Assembly: GCA_002282015.1 (NCBI GenBank)
Contig: NCIJ01000002.1
Location: forward strand, 62,001 to 126,000
Direction of reading: 5' to 3'
Length of the DNA: 64,000 nucleotides
Source: Sulfuricurvum sp. 17-40-25
GTDB lineage: Bacteria; Campylobacterota; Campylobacteria; Campylobacterales; Sulfurimonadaceae
Shown: positions 20,574-28,430 of the stretch, one piece after another
Layout: each line of letters opens with the position of its first letter
Position numbering within the stretch: the first letter of the stretch is position 1
Made by a program: the position numbers and the translations under genes
Notes under the pieces: model-generated
What the model was told of the DNA's origin: nothing
Database searches by the model: none
The model's input: the letters and a program-made list of their open reading frames with translations, nothing else

Positions 20574-20942
20574 TTAAACGTCTTGGAGAATCTGTTCTAC
20601 TGTTTCTTTTAACGTCTGAATATCGTTTTTACAGACATCGAATACCGCTTCGGCGTTGAGATCGAAATAATGATGGCTGATAATGTCGCGCATGCCTTTG
20701 ACCGATTTCCAATCCACGGTAGGATATTTTGGTAACAGTTTTTTGTCGGTGAGTTTGTCAACGTTTTTTAAACTTTCACCGATAGCGATCAGCTGCATGC
20801 AGATGGCATCCAGTTTTTCAAGACCTGATTCATCTTCTAAAAAATCATCGGGAGTAAGAATGGGTTCAAAGCGTTTGAGGATGCGTTGGGTTGCGCCGTG
20901 AATCTGCGTGAGTGTTTCGATCAGTAGAGCCTTTTCAGGCAT
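20574..20942 (-). CDS. hepT: HepT-family HEPN ribonuclease toxin
   Basis: A 122-residue all-helical DUF86/HepT protein. The HEPN RNase motif RX4HXY is present as R85-H90-Y92 in RDIISHHYF. In characterised HepT-MntA systems the toxin is an RNase and the motif tyrosine is AMPylated by the antitoxin. The gene start overlaps the mntA stop by 8 bases, the usual order antitoxin then toxin. It sits 70 bases from the tmRNA 3' end, in a segment that looks acquired. Confidence 0.92.
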   Translation of the reverse strand: MPEKALLIETLTQIHGATQRILKRFEPILTPDDFLEDESGLEKLDAICMQLIAIGESLKNVDKLTDKKLLPKYPTVDWKSVKGMRDIISHHYFDLNAEAVFDVCKNDIQTLKETVEQILQDV

Positions 20943-21225
20943 AGACTGCTTCCTTTTGAATTCGCTCTTTTAGAAATGTATTCATGCTTTCTCGGAAGCT
21001 GACCAGATCAACATGGGTGTGCATCAGCTCTTCGAGATCGAGACGTATACGGGAGAGTTTAAAAAGGTTAGGGCGTTTTGTTTCGATGATGACGTCAACA
21101 TCACTATCTTCTGTAGCTTCATTACGTGCTACAGAGCCAAATATACCAATACGGACTATGCCAAACTCATCGGCATGTTCACGTTTGTATGATTGTAATA
21201 CTTCGAGAGCTTCTTTTTGTGTCAT
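20935..21225 (-). CDS. mntA: MntA-family nucleotidyltransferase antitoxin
   Basis: A 96-residue minimal nucleotidyltransferase with the GSX10DXD signature (G30-S31, D42, D44) in GSVARNEATEDSDVD. Such antitoxins silence HepT by transferring AMP to its motif tyrosine. It is the upstream gene of the pair and overlaps hepT by 8 bases. Confidence 0.93.
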   Translation of the reverse strand: MTQKEALEVLQSYKREHADEFGIVRIGIFGSVARNEATEDSDVDVIIETKRPNLFKLSRIRLDLEELMHTHVDLVSFRESMNTFLKERIQKEAVYA

Positions 21226-21340
21226 ACGATGATTATAACCTAACTAGCACGTCTAAGGCAATAGTGGGTCACATTAGACTCTAGGTGCTGCTCTAAAATA
21301 TCTCCCAACGAGACTTTATTGCCAATCTAATAGGAAAAGG

Positions 21341-21414
21341 AAATGGGGTCAGGTAATAAGTATAAATTCATTATTTATTATCAATTATACTACAAAAAGT
21401 AGCCTGTCCCCTTT
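21341..21414. repeat. Short inverted-repeat element (MITE/REPIN-like)
   Basis: A 74-base element bounded by AAATGGGGTCAGG (21341-21353) and the imperfect reverse complement CCTGTCCCCTTT (21403-21414). Inside, GTATAAATT and AATTATAC (about 21359-21389) form a second, AT-rich near-palindrome. It carries no gene. GGGGTCAGG-type ends resemble sequences flanking IS200-like/REP-associated tyrosine transposases, so it may be a non-autonomous copy. It lies alone in the 269-base gap between mntA and the FTR-like gene; the rest of that gap shows no ORF or clear signal. Confidence 0.5.
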
Positions 21415-21494
21415 TCTCTTAAACCATATTGAGTTCTATAAATCTAATCTTAATCATAATGATCTATAATTTGTAAATATAAAAAGGAATAAAA

Positions 21495-22118
21495 ATGATA
21501 TACATGATGATTGGTTTTTTTAAAGACTTTTTTAAATATAAAGAAAGTGCTAAAAAACAGCAAGCTTGGTTAGAAAAGTATGCTAAACAGAAAAATTATG
21601 CACTTAATCCGAGTTGGATGATGCTCACAAATCTCAAAAGTAACCTTTGTGAGATGGAAGCGACTTTTGGGAAACGTTATTGCCCTTGTTTTGAACCGTC
21701 GGCTGATGAAGAGTTAAATAAAAAGATGATGTGTCCTTGTAAATTCATTGATGAAGAGATTGCTCAATATGGTACTTGTCATTGTGCACTTTTTGGTCCT
21801 GCTGATTTAAGTAAAGATGACTGGAATACATCTTCTAAACGTCTTATGAATGAATATCAAGTGCCGAAAAATCTTAAAAATGGTGTTCTTGATACCCGTG
21901 GAATGCCACTTGATCCACATCGTGCTCTGCCAATTCCAGACATGATGCATCAGCTCAAGTCAACACTTAATGGTTATAGAGGTGATACTCTTACTGTTAT
22001 AGTAGAACATGAACAAGAAGTGAAGAATCTAGAGAAAATAGCACAATATCGTGGTCTAAAGATGAGTAGTGTTAATAAAAATGGTAGTTTTGAGGCCGTG
22101 TTAGACTTTAAAAAATAA
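21495..22118 (+). CDS. Ferredoxin-thioredoxin reductase-like protein with TusA-like tail
   Basis: A 207-residue protein. Residues 52-97 carry C63-P-C65, C80-P-C82 and C95-H-C97, the CPC/CPC/CHC signature of the FTR catalytic subunit, which binds a [4Fe-4S] cluster next to a redox disulfide. Spacings here are 14 and 12 residues, against 16 and 8 in the plant enzyme. From about 130 a second domain (VLDTRGMPLDP, then GDTLTVIVEHE) resembles the TusA/SirA fold, but the catalytic CPxP is replaced by LDPH. ATG 21495 is chosen because AAGGA lies six bases before it. No ferredoxin or variable subunit is adjacent. Thiol reduction is the likely role; its partner is unknown. Confidence 0.85.
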   Translation: MIYMMIGFFKDFFKYKESAKKQQAWLEKYAKQKNYALNPSWMMLTNLKSNLCEMEATFGKRYCPCFEPSADEELNKKMMCPCKFIDEEIAQYGTCHCALFGPADLSKDDWNTSSKRLMNEYQVPKNLKNGVLDTRGMPLDPHRALPIPDMMHQLKSTLNGYRGDTLTVIVEHEQEVKNLEKIAQYRGLKMSSVNKNGSFEAVLDFKK

Positions 22119-22197
22119 GTTATTCTTTTCCATTATTATTGTGCGATTAAATTACTTGTTTATGTAGTTTGAGTTTGCACAATTCCACCACATTATC

Positions 22198-22704
22198 TTA
22201 TTTAACCCGCTTATCTAAAATAAAATCTACGATGACATGTATAAAAGTCGGTATGGTCTGATTTGCGTCTACACTGAAAGTTGCCAGTTCTTTATAAATA
22301 TTTTTACGCTGATCAAATAAAGCTCTAGCTCTTGATTCATCGTTAAATAATGGTCGTTTTTGACGTTCTCTTGCACTCAAGCGATTTACTATAACATCAA
22401 AATCAGCTTCTATATAAATAATTAGAGATTTCTCTGATATTGTACTGTGTATAGGTACGCCACCACCCGTAGCGATCACTTGACCCGTGTTTTGAGTTAA
22501 TTCATTGATACATTTTTGTTCAAGACTCCGAAAATACGCTTCCCCCTTAGTTTCAAAAATATCAATAATACTGCTATTTTGCTCTGCTTCAATAATAGTA
22601 TCAACATCCAGGAATTTTTTGTGAAGTTGCCTTGCGAGAACTTTACCTACACTACTCTTACCGCATCCCATAAAGCCTATCAATACTATGTTATCGTATA
22701 CCAA
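22198..22704 (-). CDS. aroK: Shikimate kinase
   Basis: A 168-residue kinase phosphorylating shikimate in aromatic amino-acid synthesis. Seen: Walker A GFMGCGKSSVG, the DVDTIIE shikimate-binding motif, FRSLEQ, ATGGGVP and the lid region RQKRPLF. The start is TTG at 22704, supported by AAGGAG six bases before it; no ATG fits. It stands alone on its strand. Confidence 0.95.
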   Translation of the reverse strand: MVYDNIVLIGFMGCGKSSVGKVLARQLHKKFLDVDTIIEAEQNSSIIDIFETKGEAYFRSLEQKCINELTQNTGQVIATGGGVPIHSTISEKSLIIYIEADFDVIVNRLSARERQKRPLFNDESRARALFDQRKNIYKELATFSVDANQTIPTFIHVIVDFILDKRVK

Positions 22705-22747
22705 TCGGTGCTCCTTGTGATATTTTTATTTATCTTCACTGTTAAGT

Positions 22748-22825
22748 ATGTCCGTATTTAAAAATGCGGATGATAGCACAATCGCGTTCTGGTTTCGATG
22801 TCACATTGTTAGAATGTTCATGTAA
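22748..22825 (+). other. Possible leader peptide or small RNA region upstream of an orphan terminator
   Basis: Between aroK (minus) and the next plus-strand gene lies a 25-codon ORF, ATG 22748 to TAA 22823, beginning MSVFKNADD and with no clear ribosome site. Its stop codon is at the base of the terminator hairpin that follows. The layout could be a leader peptide with an attenuator or a small RNA; it could also be chance. No function is claimed. Confidence 0.25.
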
Positions 22826-22855
22826 TAGGGGAATTATCCCCCTATTATGCTTTTT
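22823..22855 (+). terminator. Rho-independent terminator with no obvious upstream gene
   Basis: Stem TAATAGGGG (22823-22831) pairs with CCCCTATTA (22839-22847), seven-base loop, followed by TGCTTTTT. The T-run is on the plus strand, but the nearest upstream coding gene is on the minus strand. Confidence 0.65.
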
Positions 22856-22903
22856 AAAAATAAAGTAATTGTTATTATTCATAGCTTTATAAAATACATT
22901 GAT

Positions 22904-22909
22904 TATAAT
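22904..22909 (+). promoter_or_regulatory. Putative -10 box for the 22936 gene cluster
   Basis: Perfect TATAAT 26 bases before ATG 22936, downstream of the orphan terminator. No convincing -35. Confidence 0.4.
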
Positions 22910-22935
22910 CCGATTAATAAACAAAGGATACTTAT

Positions 22936-23244
22936 ATGGCATACGAAGTAATAACCTACGAAGATGTTGCAGTCTTCAATTATGTACTACCTGAAAAAAA
23001 AGAAAAAGAGCAGGTTGAAAGAGAGATGACATTGGTGTGGGAGGATAGTCTTGAAAAGTTTTTCGAGGCTTATGGTTCTGAAAAGCCTTATAAGATAACC
23101 ACATTTGATATGGAAAGACAAAAAAATAAGTTTATAGCTGATATAGAAGATAAAAATGATGCTATCATAGATGAAGTGGATGAGGAAATTAGTCGAAAGA
23201 TGAAGTTTTCATTCGACTATACTTCACCAACCTATGAAGACTAA
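22936..23244 (+). CDS. Small acidic protein of unknown function
   Basis: 102 residues, rich in Glu, Asp and Lys, soluble and largely helical in the second half (KFIADIEDKNDAIIDEVDEEI). The ATG has AAAGGA seven bases upstream, and the stop lies three bases before the start of a DUF3147-like membrane protein gene, so the pair is probably co-transcribed. No family is recognised. Confidence 0.72.
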   Translation: MAYEVITYEDVAVFNYVLPEKKEKEQVEREMTLVWEDSLEKFFEAYGSEKPYKITTFDMERQKNKFIADIEDKNDAIIDEVDEEISRKMKFSFDYTSPTYED

Positions 23245-23247
23245 AGA

Positions 23248-23598
23248 TTGAGCTACTATATAACTAAACTGATTATTACCACGCTTATAATAGTGCTGAT
23301 ATCTGAAATATCCAAGAGAAGCAGTTTGGCAGGTGCGTTGTTGGCGGCTATACCACTCGTATCAATATTGGCCATGACCTGGATGTACGTCGATACGAAT
23401 AGCAGTACCAGCGCTGTTGAATTTTCAAATAGAATCATTTGGCTGATCGCTCCTTCTATGACATTATTTATTGTTTTTCCTCTATTGATAAAAAAAGGGA
23501 TAGGTTTTTATCCAAGCATGGGCGTTGCTATTGTGGCAACGGTAGCTGCGTATTATTTGGTTATCTTGATAGTTGGAAAATTTGGGATTAAATTGTAA
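23248..23598 (+). CDS. DUF3147-like small membrane protein
   Basis: A 116-residue protein made of about four transmembrane helices (LIITTLIIVLISEI, GALLAAIPLVSILAM, IIWLIAPSMTLFIVF, GVAIVATVAAYYLVILIV), matching the DUF3147 pattern including ISEISKRSSLAGALLAAIP. The start is TTG at 23248, three bases after the preceding stop; no ATG fits before the first helix, so translation is probably coupled. The role is unknown. Confidence 0.75.
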   Translation: MSYYITKLIITTLIIVLISEISKRSSLAGALLAAIPLVSILAMTWMYVDTNSSTSAVEFSNRIIWLIAPSMTLFIVFPLLIKKGIGFYPSMGVAIVATVAAYYLVILIVGKFGIKL

Positions 23599-23610
23599 AG
23601 CAAGAAGCGA

Positions 23611-23628
23611 TATAATTTCAAAAAAGGA
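23611..23628 (+). promoter_or_regulatory. Putative -10 and ribosome site for the 23635 lipoprotein gene
   Basis: TATAAT at 23611-23616 and AAGGA at 23624-23628, six bases before a TTG start at 23635. If the box is used, the leader is very short. The ribosome site decides the TTG start. Confidence 0.4.
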
Positions 23629-23634
23629 CTTATA

Positions 23635-24432
23635 TTGAAATATTCACTACCCTTTATACTTATAGCATTGATTTTTACTGGTTGTACTACAGCTCCAACG
23701 CTTTCGAATCAAAAGTCATGTATCAATGCCTCAAGATTAAATACCTATGGATTTAATCATTTAGAACATGTAGCTAAAGCACTACGTGAAGAAAAGCAAA
23801 ACAACAAATCCTTTGAGATGAGTATGTTTGTATTAAACAAGACCGTCTCTGAATATTCGGATATCTTTAAATCAAGCGCACAAATCAGCAATGTGGCACG
23901 ATTCCTGCCAATCCCGTATGCAGGAGAAGTGTGTACGACGACGAAGCTCATCTCTAAGACTGCCCTTAATCTTGGACAAACTGCAAATGCATTTAATCAA
24001 TACAAGCAAAGTTCCAATACCTTTTTAGATGAATTTGACAAACTCAATCGTTCAACAGCTACATCAGCAGAGATCTCTAAATTGGCCATTTATGGTGATA
24101 CAAAACTGCTCTCTGATGCAAAGAATTTAGAACTTTCATTAATAGAAATATCTTCGTCCACCGCGACAATGGCATCTACGATGCAAAGTATCTCTGAGGC
24201 ATTGGAAACAGGCAACGGTTACGTTAGCAATATGAAAAGTTACGTCGGTATGAATACTACAGCAAGTGCTGAGGATAAGGGAAAAGTAGCCAAAAATCGT
24301 AATTCTATGCTGACGTCATTAACTCAACTAAACCAAAAAGTAAGTTTACTTGAAAAAAGTGGTCAAGTGTATCGATACAACATTGCAAAAGCACGAGTTT
24401 ATTCGGAATTGTCACTCGAATTAGGAAAATAG
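23635..24432 (+). CDS. Lipoprotein of unknown function, helical
   Basis: A 265-residue predicted lipoprotein: signal peptide with lipobox IFTGC, then a long helical body with no large hydrophobic segment. The sequence FLPIPYAGEVCTTTKL separates two coiled-coil-prone parts. The start is TTG 23635 with AAGGA six bases upstream. It follows the small acidic and DUF3147-like genes on the same strand and may share their transcript or use its own -10 box. No known family is recognised. Confidence 0.75.
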   Translation: MKYSLPFILIALIFTGCTTAPTLSNQKSCINASRLNTYGFNHLEHVAKALREEKQNNKSFEMSMFVLNKTVSEYSDIFKSSAQISNVARFLPIPYAGEVCTTTKLISKTALNLGQTANAFNQYKQSSNTFLDEFDKLNRSTATSAEISKLAIYGDTKLLSDAKNLELSLIEISSSTATMASTMQSISEALETGNGYVSNMKSYVGMNTTASAEDKGKVAKNRNSMLTSLTQLNQKVSLLEKSGQVYRYNIAKARVYSELSLELGK

Positions 24433-24436
24433 TTCC

Positions 24437-25675
24437 CTATGCGATTAAAGCTTCAAACCTATTGACATTTACGATTGTTTCACGCATGAGTGCAAAAACA
24501 GATTCTGGATTCAGATGATGTTTTTCGATGAATTGCTGGACTTTTTGTACTTCAAATCGCTCAATTTCTTCGACCAATGAAAGCAGTTCTCCCAATATTC
24601 CCTCATGATTCAGTAAGGCGATGATCAGTTCTACAGAGAGACTCATCTCTTTTAAGATCAGTGATAATGGCAGAGACATAACCGCACTGGATAATGACAT
24701 GATTGCAACGAAGAAGACTTTTCCTTCTTCCTCTTTATTCGCATTTGGATGTATCAACTTATAAAGTTTTCCCATTAGCATTGCTCTATTTTGTACCATC
24801 AAAAGCAGGGGAGATTGATATTTGGAGTTATTGACTGATTTACCATATATGAGAAGCATGAGCCAACTTCCCAATGCTTTACGCCCCAATAACGTCAGTA
24901 CTTGCTGAATGGATGATACTTGGTTTTGTAAGTTGAAGTGCTGTGAGTTGATGTAACGAAGCAGTTGTAGCGTTAGATCCGAGTGTATTTCAAACATACG
25001 AACCAACTCTTGTATCTCCACATCAGACATTAGCATGTTATAGAGCTGAATGATGGTAAATGTATTGGCGTCTTGCGTTTCATGCTTAAACGATTCGGGT
25101 TCACTGAAGTAGTTTCCCTGGACATAGCGAAAGTGTAAACTAAGAGTAGTCCCATAAAGATTATAACTGTCTATGTGCGTACCAATAACATGAATAGAAT
25201 AGGGTTCTAGAACCTTTTTTAATTTTTTAAGGTATTGCTGTGAAAAATCTTTCATATTGATTTTTAGGTAGCTGATATAGGGGAACAGGTGTTTTAATTT
25301 TTTTAATTTTGGTATGGAATTGAGGGTAATATCATGCAACGCCAGCTGATAGCCCTCATCATACAATTGTATGATCTTATGATATACCTGTTTGTCTAGG
25401 ATAGTGGTATCAAGTATTGAGAGGATGAAATGTTCTTTTGGAATGGATTCAACCATATCACTGAGTAACACCGTATGATCGACTTGAATAAAGCCAGGAC
25501 GCTCTCCTAATATATTTTTGACTCCATAGGTATTTAATAATGTAGAGATCAAAGTAGAGACGCAAGCGCGCAGTGAAACAGGTTTATCACCTGCAATAGA
25601 GAAATAAAGATCGTAAGCAAAGCTATCGCCATCATGATCAATAATAGGCTGCCTGCCAATAAAGTGAAAATCCAT
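24437..25675 (-). CDS. Degenerate EAL-HDOD signalling protein (copy 2)
   Basis: A 412-residue EAL-HDOD protein with N-terminal FIGRQPI (5-11). It is the most eroded of the three copies in the window: LSILD (85-89) for FEILE, ALHDI (112-116) for ALDDF, KIN (138-140) for KID, and no AEKVE. It therefore almost certainly lacks phosphodiesterase activity. The HDOD half (about 205-400) keeps the pattern of repeated helices (LRYINSQHFNLQNQVSSIQQ). It converges on the lipoprotein gene with a four-base gap. Confidence 0.85.
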   Translation of the reverse strand: MDFHFIGRQPIIDHDGDSFAYDLYFSIAGDKPVSLRACVSTLISTLLNTYGVKNILGERPGFIQVDHTVLLSDMVESIPKEHFILSILDTTILDKQVYHKIIQLYDEGYQLALHDITLNSIPKLKKLKHLFPYISYLKINMKDFSQQYLKKLKKVLEPYSIHVIGTHIDSYNLYGTTLSLHFRYVQGNYFSEPESFKHETQDANTFTIIQLYNMLMSDVEIQELVRMFEIHSDLTLQLLRYINSQHFNLQNQVSSIQQVLTLLGRKALGSWLMLLIYGKSVNNSKYQSPLLLMVQNRAMLMGKLYKLIHPNANKEEEGKVFFVAIMSLSSAVMSLPLSLILKEMSLSVELIIALLNHEGILGELLSLVEEIERFEVQKVQQFIEKHHLNPESVFALMRETIVNVNRFEALIA

Positions 25676-25772
25676 AAAATCTCAATTTGTATAGTAGTTG
25701 GAAAATAGTTAATGATGTATTATAGTGGATTAAAGTCGTAGAATAGTTAAATAATGCAGAAGATGATTAGGC

Positions 25773-25789
25773 TTGACCCAGAGGGTCAA
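25773..25789 (-). terminator. Possible hairpin terminator after the superoxide reductase gene
   Basis: Perfect 7-bp inverted repeat TTGACCC/GGGTCAA with a three-base loop, six bases beyond the stop codon. There is no T-run on the minus strand, so it may be an mRNA 3'-end stabiliser instead. Confidence 0.4.
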
Positions 25790-25795
25790 AGAGGG

Positions 25796-26215
25796 TTATG
25801 AACAGTGTCCGCCACCGCAACAAGCGCTGTCTTCAGCAACTTCTACGACAACTGGAGTTGATTCCCAGATACCGTGTTTAGTACAGTAACCGTGTGCAAC
25901 AAGTGTTAATTTTTTACCCATTGGGCGAATGTTGAAAGTAACTTCAGCATGAGATTTTTCGTTACCAAGAGTTCCTGGAACAAAAGAAGTCATTGCTAAT
26001 TTAGTCTCACCATTGAATAAAGTGATGCTTTCGATGTAGTGATCAAAATCGTCTGGATGAGTATACTCTTGACCCATTTTTACATTTACTGCAAGCATTT
26101 TGCCTTGTTTAGCTTCACCAAGAACGGTGATGAACGGTGAGTGACGATCGATAAGATCCTTTTTTGCTTCTCTTTCTACTGTGTCAATATCAACATATTT
26201 GTTAATTGTTGGCAT
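25796..26215 (-). CDS. Superoxide reductase (neelaredoxin type)
   Basis: A 139-residue one-iron superoxide reductase that reduces superoxide to peroxide without making oxygen. Iron ligands are visible: H25, H53 and H59 (HPDDFDHYIES), C111 and H114 (CTKHGIW). The catalytic loop reads D23-R24-H25 where classical enzymes have Glu-Lys-His. The C-terminus ends CCGGGHCS (132-139), an added cysteine-rich tail not needed for the core. There is no N-terminal rubredoxin-like desulforedoxin domain. It is single and divergent from glyS. Confidence 0.88.
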   Translation of the reverse strand: MPTINKYVDIDTVEREAKKDLIDRHSPFITVLGEAKQGKMLAVNVKMGQEYTHPDDFDHYIESITLFNGETKLAMTSFVPGTLGNEKSHAEVTFNIRPMGKKLTLVAHGYCTKHGIWESTPVVVEVAEDSACCGGGHCS

Positions 26216-26393
26216 GTTAATTCTCCTTGTGTTTTTTAAATTATGAATAGGGCATTGTACCCCGTCAAACTTTTAAACTTCCCTAAAGAGTATTGTTTAT
26301 ATCTAATTTAATTTTCATCAAAGCAACAGCCTGTTTTAACCAATTTAGAGATAAAATAGAGCCTATAATAAAATGATATTTGGATGAATAATT

Positions 26394-28430
26394 ATGTTAA
26401 AACCCCTCTTAATAGAAATCGGTGTCGAAGAACTCCCCGCGGTTCCATTACTCAAAGAATTGAGCGAAATTGAAAAAAAATGGTCTGTTTTACTCGAAAA
26501 AAATGGCCTTTTAGGTCAATTTGAATTTTATTACACTCCAAGACGTCTTGTTTTATGGCATCGTGAGTTTAAAACCCAACAAGATGACCGCGTGGAAGAG
26601 TTCTACGGAGCTCCGGTTGATATGGCAATAAAAGACGGTGTTCCAACAGCCGCTGCAATCGGATTTGCAAAAAAATGCGGTGTGGAGTTTGATCAGCTTT
26701 CTCAGGCTCAAAAGGGTGGGAAAGAGGTTCTTTATTTTAGTCGTACCGTTGAGGGCAAACCAAGCAGTGAGATTTTGGGTGAGATGATCGATCAATGGAT
26801 TAAAAGCCTCAATTTTGGTAAATCCATGCGATGGGGTTCATCGTCTGAAAGTTTTATCCGGCCGATTCGTTGGGTCAATGTTATGATGGGTGAAAGTGTT
26901 GTGGATCTTGAGCTTTTTGGAGTAGCCTCTAAAGCACATACCCATGTACACCGTATCAGTCATTTTGAATCTAAGCCTGTAAAGTCCATTCATCATTATT
27001 TTGATTTGCTAAAAGAGGGATCGGTCACGCTGTTTCCGCAAGAGCGTCGTGAAAATATCCTGAGCAGTTTTGCTAAACTGGAAAAAGAGCATGGAATTAC
27101 TATTGAAATAGATGAAGATCTTTTGGATGAAGTGGTTGCGATCACGGAACATCCTACGCCGCTTCTTGGAAGTTTTGACGCATCGTTTCTACAGCTTCCA
27201 CCTGAAGTGATCATCACGTCGATGAAAGAACATCAGCGCTATTTTCCTGTGTTTAAAAACGGAAAGTTGATGAATGCTTTTGTGGTTGTTTCCAATGCTC
27301 TTTGTGATGATTTCAGCAAAGTAATCGAGGGGAATGAACGCGTCCTTCGTCCACGTCTTAGTGACGGATTATTCTTTTATAACAATGATCTTAAAAAAGG
27401 TCTTAGTACTAATGGATTAGAAAAAGTCGTCTTTATGAATGGTTTGGGAACATTAGCGGAAAAAATTAAACGTGAAAAAGTGGTTGCATCTACTATAGCA
27501 AATTTAATATATAATAATATTAACACTAACCATTTAGAGCGTGCGATGGATTTGGCAAAAGCCGATCTCATGAGTGAAATGGTTTATGAGTTTACTGAGC
27601 TTCAGGGGCTAATGGGGTATTACTACGCACTGGCACTGGGTGAACCAATCGAAGTGGCAATTGCGATTAAAGAGCAGTATTTACCAACTGGACAAGACAG
27701 TTTCTTACCTTCTACAGTTTTAAGCTCTATTGTAGCAATGGCAATAAAGCTTGATACTCTCATTGGAATGTTTAGTATCGGAGAAATTCCAACGGGTTCA
27801 CGTGATCCATTTGCTTTGAGACGTGCAGTCAATGGAATAGTACAAATAGCCATATCCAATCAAATTCCTCTCAATTTTTCGACGTTAATCGATCAGCTTG
27901 CCTCTATATATCCACAAGCTAAAGAGTATAAAAAGAACGTTGAAACATTTATTATTGAGCGTTTACCTGGTGCTTATCCAGGGATTAACCCATCTATTAT
28001 CCAAGCAGTTGTTGCTAAAGACGCTTTTGTAGAACTAGATGTTCTCGAAATCGATCGTAAAATCCGGGCAGTTGCTACCATTGCATCGTCCAAATCGTTT
28101 CTCGAAGGGTTTTCTACTTTTAAACGTGTCAGTAATATTTTAAAAGATGAAACTATGGATACTGCATTTAAGGTGAATGAATCATTACTTGAAGCTGATG
28201 AAGAGCGTGATTTACATCGTTTAGCATCCAGTGCTATCTCATCATCATACAATACCATTGAAGAGCGTTTAGACGCATTATTTGCTCTTAAAAGTCCGTT
28301 GGATAATTTCTTTGATAATGTCATGGTTAATGCAGAAGATCTACAAGTACGCGCAAATAGAAAGGCACTTCTTGGAATGATCTATCAAGAGATATACGCA
28401 ATTGCCGACATCAAAAATATTACCTTATGA
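26394..28430 (+). CDS. glyS: Glycyl-tRNA synthetase beta subunit
   Basis: A 678-residue beta chain of the alpha2-beta2 glycyl-tRNA synthetase. Seen: the typical opening LLIEIGVEELPA, RRLVLWHR, SFIRPIRWV, MKEHQRYFPVF, and the HD-like and anticodon-binding C-terminal half (PTGSRDPFALRRAVNG). Full length. The alpha subunit glyQ is not in the window. A TATAAT at 26364-26369 lies 24 bases upstream. The last codons overlap the next gene's reading frame. Confidence 0.97.
   Translation: MLKPLLIEIGVEELPAVPLLKELSEIEKKWSVLLEKNGLLGQFEFYYTPRRLVLWHREFKTQQDDRVEEFYGAPVDMAIKDGVPTAAAIGFAKKCGVEFDQLSQAQKGGKEVLYFSRTVEGKPSSEILGEMIDQWIKSLNFGKSMRWGSSSESFIRPIRWVNVMMGESVVDLELFGVASKAHTHVHRISHFESKPVKSIHHYFDLLKEGSVTLFPQERRENILSSFAKLEKEHGITIEIDEDLLDEVVAITEHPTPLLGSFDASFLQLPPEVIITSMKEHQRYFPVFKNGKLMNAFVVVSNALCDDFSKVIEGNERVLRPRLSDGLFFYNNDLKKGLSTNGLEKVVFMNGLGTLAEKIKREKVVASTIANLIYNNINTNHLERAMDLAKADLMSEMVYEFTELQGLMGYYYALALGEPIEVAIAIKEQYLPTGQDSFLPSTVLSSIVAMAIKLDTLIGMFSIGEIPTGSRDPFALRRAVNGIVQIAISNQIPLNFSTLIDQLASIYPQAKEYKKNVETFIIERLPGAYPGINPSIIQAVVAKDAFVELDVLEIDRKIRAVATIASSKSFLEGFSTFKRVSNILKDETMDTAFKVNESLLEADEERDLHRLASSAISSSYNTIEERLDALFALKSPLDNFFDNVMVNAEDLQVRANRKALLGMIYQEIYAIADIKNITL

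Follow-up and report, generated by a model that had tools for sequence, protein, structure and literature searches.

What does a sulfur-carrier fold contribute to a reductase once its carrier residue is gone? The window analyzed here, a 64,000-nucleotide stretch of the genome of Sulfuricurvum sp. 17-40-25, contains a gene that a preliminary description, made from the DNA letters, read as a ferredoxin-thioredoxin reductase (FTR)-type iron-sulfur domain joined to a TusA-like domain without its catalytic cysteine. We find that this is a real and conserved fusion, in which an FTR domain of the ferredoxin:disulfide reductase (FDR) type precedes a TusA domain that lacks the cysteine and looks repurposed. 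The best explanation, to which we assign a probability of about one half, is that the C-terminal domain descends from a TusA sulfur carrier and that the protein is an FTR-beta/FDR-type enzyme that uses ferredoxin to reduce disulfides or persulfides and has a TusA-derived docking domain that no longer carries sulfur. Searches of the literature found no paper joining the phrase "ferredoxin-thioredoxin reductase", in this hyphenated spelling as distinct from that with a colon, with "TusA", and none containing both "DUF2249" and "TusA"; among the matches listed in the other literature searches, no title concerned an FTR/TusA fusion.

Results

Architecture of the gene and its product

The gene is an intact single frame of 207 codons plus stop at window positions 21495–22118 on the forward strand, on which all of its features described below also lie. 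A Shine-Dalgarno-like AAGGA (21484–21488), read from the sequence, stands 6 nt upstream of the ATG, and a scan for promoters and terminators returned nothing above chance. The architecture is common to 22 distinct sequences, that of the window included. The protein opens with an N-terminal helix (residues 2–14; 21498–21536), present in the second of the two structure models described below, in which M4, M5, I6, G7, F8, and D11 are invariant in 22 of 22 fusion sequences. The FTR catalytic (beta-chain) domain follows (residues 20–109; 21552–21821), and the TusA-like domain, which is cysteine-free in the window protein, occupies residues 123–207 (21861–22115), as delimited by the models, profile comparison, and conservation.

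The catalytic half resembles solved ferredoxin:disulfide reductases

The Pfam profile FeThRed_B (PF02943) matches residues 20–109 with an E-value of 2.2e-17 (63.5 bits against a cut-off of 22), in agreement with the FTR-type iron-sulfur domain first proposed, and it matches all 15 members of the first fusion alignment at E ≤ 1. The CPC/CPC/CHC motif described as running from C63 to C97 is present as C63-P-C65 (21681–21689), C80-P-C82 (21732–21740), and C95-H-C97 (21777–21785); across the alignment, 36 of 36 rows keep the six cysteines and the histidine of CHC. The plant enzyme suggests, by analogy, that C63 is a cluster ligand and C65 one half of the active disulfide; C80 and C82 are presumed to be cluster ligands, C95 likewise a presumed ligand, and C97 the presumed active-site thiol.

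The spacing of the cysteine pairs in the window protein is CPC-X14-CPC-X12-CHC, and X14/X12 recurs in all 22 fusions (assigned by motif in 21 and from sequence for one, L137). The loci contain 78 distinct FTR-motif frames, of which the 22 fusions alone have 14/12 spacing; the other 56 differ. Plant FTR (1dj7, 7bzk) has the same CPC/CPC/CHC active-site set but a spacing of X16/X8, as counted in the 7bzk alignment, so that the earlier remark on spacings that differ from plant FTR is correct. X14/X12 is also found in 4tpu and 7pwe, and the unusual spacing is thus that of solved ferredoxin:disulfide reductases. Sequence matches to solved structures have E-values of 4.3e-9 for 4tpu, 3.6e-8 for 7pwe, and 0.13 for plant FTR.

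The first AlphaFold model, built from fusion sequences alone (15 rows), was poor in the FTR half, with pLDDT below 60 over residues 1–110, and the model was therefore rebuilt with 16 further FTR rows. The second model has a pLDDT of 90 and a pTM of 0.83, and its first half matches 7pwe (Foldseek E 8e-5; VIA Z 9.2, rmsd 3.4, 111 residues aligned) and 4tpu (VIA Z 8.3, rmsd 2.7, 103 aligned). The invariant FTR active-site set and this predicted fold match to ferredoxin:disulfide reductases support the proposal that the protein would be an electron-linked thiol reductase.

Plant FTR works together with an alpha chain. In the 11 fusion genomes searched (G521 left out), no match to the FTR alpha-chain profile (PF02941) rose over the cut-off, the three weak matches having E-values of 0.08–0.58, which is the expectation for a single-chain enzyme; a plant-type FTR with a partner chain was rejected on the spacing and on the lack of an alpha chain over the cut-off in these genomes. 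The double-selenoprotein FtrB (NF041072) has the FTR catalytic domain in common with the fusion, but the fusion carries cysteines rather than selenocysteines and scores 52.8 bits against a curated cut-off of 160, and this identity was rejected.

One catalytic chassis with three accessory domains

The FDR of Methanosarcina acetivorans (4tpu) shares with the fusion the FTR-type catalytic domain and the X14/X12 spacing and is the best sequence match among solved structures; it differs in its third motif, CYC rather than CHC, in its clade in the tree described below, and in being matched over only its first ~107 residues, with no TusA-like part matched. The protein from Desulfotalea psychrophila (7pwe), titled a glutaredoxin/ferredoxin disulfide reductase fusion and the best Foldseek match, has the same catalytic domain and spacing and is likewise fused to a thiol-handling domain. 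It also has a CYC third motif, and its catalytic domain, at ~84–196, has the glutaredoxin ahead of it, whereas the window protein has a cysteine-less TusA-like domain placed after the catalytic domain.

A further relative is encoded in the same genome as a paralogue of 246 codons (L012; G000:C1:360090–360359), to which Pfam assigns FeThRed_B and Rhodanese. This protein, too, has an FTR domain followed by a C-terminal domain of the sulfur-transfer type; its spacing is X12/X13 and, by eye, its rhodanese cysteine is kept (YCHVGSR). Of the 41 genomes of the genus, 40 have FTR frames of 246–309 codons, the FTR-rhodanese label resting on Pfam for one protein and on the motif for the others, whereas the TusA version is confined to this one. 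In another genome (G061) the fusion is the sole FeThRed_B match, and the FTR/TusA and FTR-rhodanese proteins therefore need not co-occur. One catalytic chassis thus occurs with three thiol- or sulfur-handling domains, TusA-like, rhodanese, and glutaredoxin, and of these versions it is the TusA version that has lost its reactive cysteine.

The C-terminal half has a predicted TusA fold

The Pfam TusA profile (PF01206) reaches the window protein only below threshold (E 0.013, 15.7 bits against a curated cut-off of 28.6), and across the family 7 of 15 members match at E ≤ 1, the best at 0.0021. When we aligned 11 fusion C-terminal domains to 12 TusA domains of related genomes by hhalign, the score was 32, with a probability of 84–85% in local and 41% in global mode; 200 column shuffles gave 10.2 ± 2.0 with a maximum of 18.2, so that 0 of 200 reached 32, and the reversed alignment scored 7.4.

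The first model shows a beta-alpha-beta-alpha-beta-beta order beyond residue 130. Foldseek ranked the SirA-like protein 3hz7 at the top, although only at E 0.007, and VIA likewise gave 3hz7 as the best solved match (Z 9.5, rmsd 1.9, 70 aligned), followed by TsuB (8k1r; Z 8.2, rmsd 2.5, 73 aligned) and E. coli TusA (3lvj; Z 8.1, rmsd 2.6, 71 aligned), with other folds at Z 6.9 and below. For the second half of the second model the Foldseek E-value for 3hz7 was only 0.043, and its VIA score fell to Z 6.0 (rmsd 2.1, 70 aligned) and that of TusA to 5.2; the next unrelated fold, at Z 4.1, lies under both TusA-family entries. Prediction and profile alignment thus uphold the TusA-like domain despite the sub-threshold Pfam match, and structure prediction, which the preliminary description had proposed as a check, recovered the TusA fold and no known FTR tail.

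With the TusA/SirA family (PF01206; 3hz7, 3lvj) the domain has in common the fold, the LDxRG first strand, and the overall profile, and it differs from that family in lacking the CPxP cysteine, in an eight-residue insert, and in falling under the Pfam cut-off. DUF2249 (PF10006) was considered as an origin of the cysteine-less domain and rejected, since its score of 10.0 is matched by 111 of 200 shuffles (10.5 ± 2.3); the DUF2249 set has only six rows, and as a positive control the same six rows score 49.8 against TusA.

The carrier cysteine is lost and an insert lies beside its site

In the global hhalign alignment VLDTRGM of the window protein pairs with the first strand of TusA, its LDTRG corresponding to LDxRG, and residues 138–145 (PLDPHRAL; 21906–21929) have no counterpart. 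Beyond this gap, I147 falls on the TusA cysteine and K155 on the conserved TusA lysine, placing the TusA CPxP site at L145-P-I147-P-D149 (21927–21941); an alternative register made by eye, with LPxP over CPxP, puts L145 at the cysteine. In either register all 22 fusions have an aliphatic residue at the former cysteine position (residue 147 is Ile in 17 and Val in 5; residue 145 is Leu in 22), in line with the reported lack of a catalytic CPxP cysteine. What did not hold is the TusA-like spacing ascribed to V131–H142, as an insert of about eight residues (138–145) stands after LDTRG and ahead of the CPxP site. The register first chosen, with RGMPLDPH as the CPxP site, was likewise set aside, because the profile alignment puts the site past the insert, at ~145–149, as LP[I/V]PD.

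The window protein has no cysteine beyond C97. A cysteine past residue 109 is found in 12 of the 22 fusions and absent in 10, the window protein among them; six of the 12 have it at residue 190, five within a C-terminal SCG[Q/N] tail, and one at residue 198. Their positions differ among fusions, and there is therefore no common site. The SCG[Q/N] ending belongs to an extra C-terminal tail present in L015, L016, L135, L138, and L139.

The insert and former site are the best-conserved part of the protein

When we averaged the majority fraction per position over the 22 sequences, residues 131–149 had a mean of 0.91 (10 of 19 invariant), compared with 0.83 in the FTR core (39 of 92) and 0.68 in the remainder of the TusA-like domain (14 of 58). 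P138, D140, R143, and L145 are invariant within the insert, and the full set of invariant residues in or near the site comprises L132, D133, R135, P138, D140, R143, L145, P146, P148, D149, M151, H152, Q153, and K155. Over eight pairs, pN/pS was 0.00–0.18 in the FTR half and 0.09–0.32 in the TusA-like half; three of these pairs have saturated synonymous sites in at least one half. Because insert and site form the best-conserved region, the TusA-like domain looks repurposed rather than decayed.

E. coli TusA touches IscS with Met24, Met25, Arg27, Arg31, and Phe58, around the reactive Cys19 (PMC2854127). Numbering outward from the residue that hhalign pairs with the cysteine (E. coli TusA itself lies outside the alignment) places Met24 at H152, Arg27 at K155, and Arg31 at N159. 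The helix that corresponds to TusA's IscS-contact helix carries M151, H152, Q153, and K155, all invariant in the fusions. Met24 and Arg31 are not reproduced, and the face is therefore one conserved within the fusion family, unlike the IscS face of TusA; judged from these residues, the most economical reading is that it may be a recognition face for another partner.

Distribution and phylogeny

Counting this genome each time, the full fusion is present in 5 of 298 sampled genomes of the phylum, 12 of 398 sampled genomes of the order, and 1 of 41 genomes of the genus, in which an FTR-domain match is found in 40 of 41. A profile of the C-terminal domain gave 12 matches in the 398 genomes of the order, all 12 within fusions, in open frames of 210–286 codons, and none outside a fusion was seen in that sample. 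A scan of the genome collection for exact peptide words, which reaches close relatives only, found 18 stretches in 10 relatives, all Campylobacterota and eight of them labelled Sulfurimonas; the profile searches covered Campylobacterota samples. The fusion is thus a real family of 22 sequences in other Campylobacterota as well, where the preliminary description had suggested looking for it.

A tree of the FTR domain unites the 22 fusions in one clade (96/92), which has a long branch of its own beside other Campylobacterota FTRs, the joining branch having support of 94/74, and 4tpu and 7pwe form a separate clade (100/95) that does not include the fusions. This placement counts against a simple identification as FDR, although the alignment is short (101 columns), the branches are long, and the root was placed at the midpoint. 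Such a patchy distribution within one clade points to transfer or to loss on several occasions. No fusion matches were found in plasmids, phages, or viral contigs, the 4tpu stretch had no match in plasmids, and a PHROGs comparison gave none.

Gene neighbourhoods and candidate partners

Neighbourhoods were examined at 20 of the 22 fusion places, comprising the window and 19 loci, by Pfam, blastp cluster, or eye (L147 and G521 excluded). Across unrelated lineages these 20 places have no conserved neighbour directly beside the fusion to point to a partner, and their neighbourhoods gave no link to sulfur oxidation. At L001, L003, and L004 the gene immediately upstream, in the same orientation, is DoxX; L062 has a DoxX relative, likewise co-oriented with the fusion, at a distance of ~5 kb. 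At L005 (3158–4956) a DsrE-family gene, lgt, and the fusion stand in a row, with lgt and the fusion overlapping; a Methyltransf_30 gene, which we take to be of the MnmC type, lies upstream at L006 and L008, and a molybdopterin oxidoreductase lies downstream at L009. Other loci have unrelated genes.

Directly upstream of the fusion in the window, on the opposite strand (20574–21225, −), is a nucleotidyltransferase/HepT-like pair of the MNT-HepT toxin-antitoxin type. A patch of lower GC content (0.31–0.39, compared with 0.37–0.46 in the preceding 5 kb) starts around the fusion gene and spans window positions ~21000–26400. A desulfoferrodoxin/superoxide-reductase-type protein (PF01880) with a cysteine-rich C-terminal tail is encoded at 25796–26215 (−).

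A CPxP-bearing TusA-family domain over the cut-off occurs in 2 of 12 fusion genomes, this one (G000), where it belongs to a YedF-like protein with TusA over and DsrE just under the cut-off, and G061. This count speaks against a TusA-specific role, and a docking partner, if there is one, need not be shared with TusA. The other TusA-family matches over the cut-off, in G496 and G523, have EHPxP and no cysteine. Thioredoxins are present in 12 of 12 fusion genomes.

Several further TusA-like proteins were encountered. Stand-alone cysteine-less proteins with EHPxP at the site (L098, L099, and L148–L150) occur in fusion genomes, and L098 and L099 are DUF2249 by Pfam. In a sister genome (L074) a TusA domain opens a 218-codon frame that runs into a membrane region, MerT-like by eye, and several of L075–L095 have similar frame lengths. 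At L071 and L073 the TusA domain lies within open frames of 765 and 755 codons, the part of L071 examined being of the sulfite/nitrite-reductase type by eye.

Discussion

Our computations show both domains in the family, an FTR active site whose residues are fully conserved, a TusA-like domain stripped of its carrier cysteine, and an insert and former site that are strongly conserved. We propose that its members may act as single-chain ferredoxin-dependent disulfide reductases of the FTR-beta/FDR type, with residue roles in the cluster and disulfide chemistry that we assume from FTR; the cluster chemistry and the electron donor we infer by homology. By this analogy, ferredoxin would reduce a [4Fe-4S] cluster with C63, C80, C82, and C95 as its ligands, and this cluster in turn would open the C65–C97 disulfide, which would then reduce a disulfide or persulfide of the partner, electrons being passed one at a time from ferredoxin to the partner by way of the cluster and C65–C97. 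The TusA-derived domain, which would have lost the carrier cysteine and gained the conserved insert beside the site, could no longer hold sulfur once that cysteine is gone. It would most likely recognize the partner, presumably a persulfide- or disulfide-bearing sulfur-trafficking protein, and present it to the FTR active site; such a docking role is plausible.

The conserved residues have to be weighed against other uses of the domain. It might be a purely structural cap that takes the place of the FTR alpha chain, protects the cluster, and gives the groove for ferredoxin or substrate its shape, with no tie to sulfur trafficking, as would fit the result that none of the 11 fusion genomes searched has an alpha chain over the cut-off, a pTM of 0.83 suggestive of a rigid two-domain unit, and the 10 of 12 fusion genomes without a CPxP TusA over the cut-off. 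We consider this unlikely while giving it real weight: the best-conserved stretch is polar and proline-rich (P138, D140, R143, P146, P148, and D149, then H152 and Q153), which is unusual for mere packing, and the FTR-rhodanese paralogue and the solved FDRs manage without such a cap. The invariant charged residues D140, R143, D149, H152, and K155, which surround the former cysteine site in sequence, could instead bind a small sulfur compound non-covalently (polysulfide, thiosulfate, sulfite, or a low-molecular-weight persulfide), as substrate or signal. Other cysteine-less TusA-like domains, of the DUF2249 type, do exist in some of the same genomes, but the fusion domain has no specific similarity to DUF2249, with 111 of 200 shuffles scoring as well, and we regard small-compound binding as improbable.

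That the domain is a degenerate, functionless relic of TusA would accord with the disappearance of the carrier cysteine from all 22 sequences; with pN/pS of 0.09–0.32 in the domain over eight pairs, and with the site region as the best-conserved part of the protein, this is very improbable. Scarcely credible is a carrier function kept through a relocated cysteine: 12 of 22 sequences have a cysteine past residue 109, but no position is common to more than six of the 22, and the window protein, which has none past C97, contradicts the idea by its own sequence.

Within the preferred reading, of a ferredoxin-driven reductase with a TusA-derived docking domain, a more specific version is tentative and, taken alone, rather unlikely: a dedicated ferredoxin-driven persulfide reductase, in which a captured carrier was stripped of its cysteine and rebuilt as a receptor that brings persulfidated partner proteins to the iron-sulfur site. 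If it is true, the fusion would belong, with the rhodanese and glutaredoxin versions, to a modular class of iron-sulfur reductases by which sulfane sulfur on proteins is turned back into sulfide.

In the fusion a sulfur carrier has turned into a part that no longer carries, yet its former active site is still strongly conserved and supplies specific residues to mutate. The route described for depersulfidation is by way of the thioredoxin and glutaredoxin systems (PMC11763069). Should protein persulfides be substrates of the FTR/TusA and FTR/rhodanese fusions, these would provide a direct, ferredoxin-powered route in chemolithotrophic Campylobacterota.
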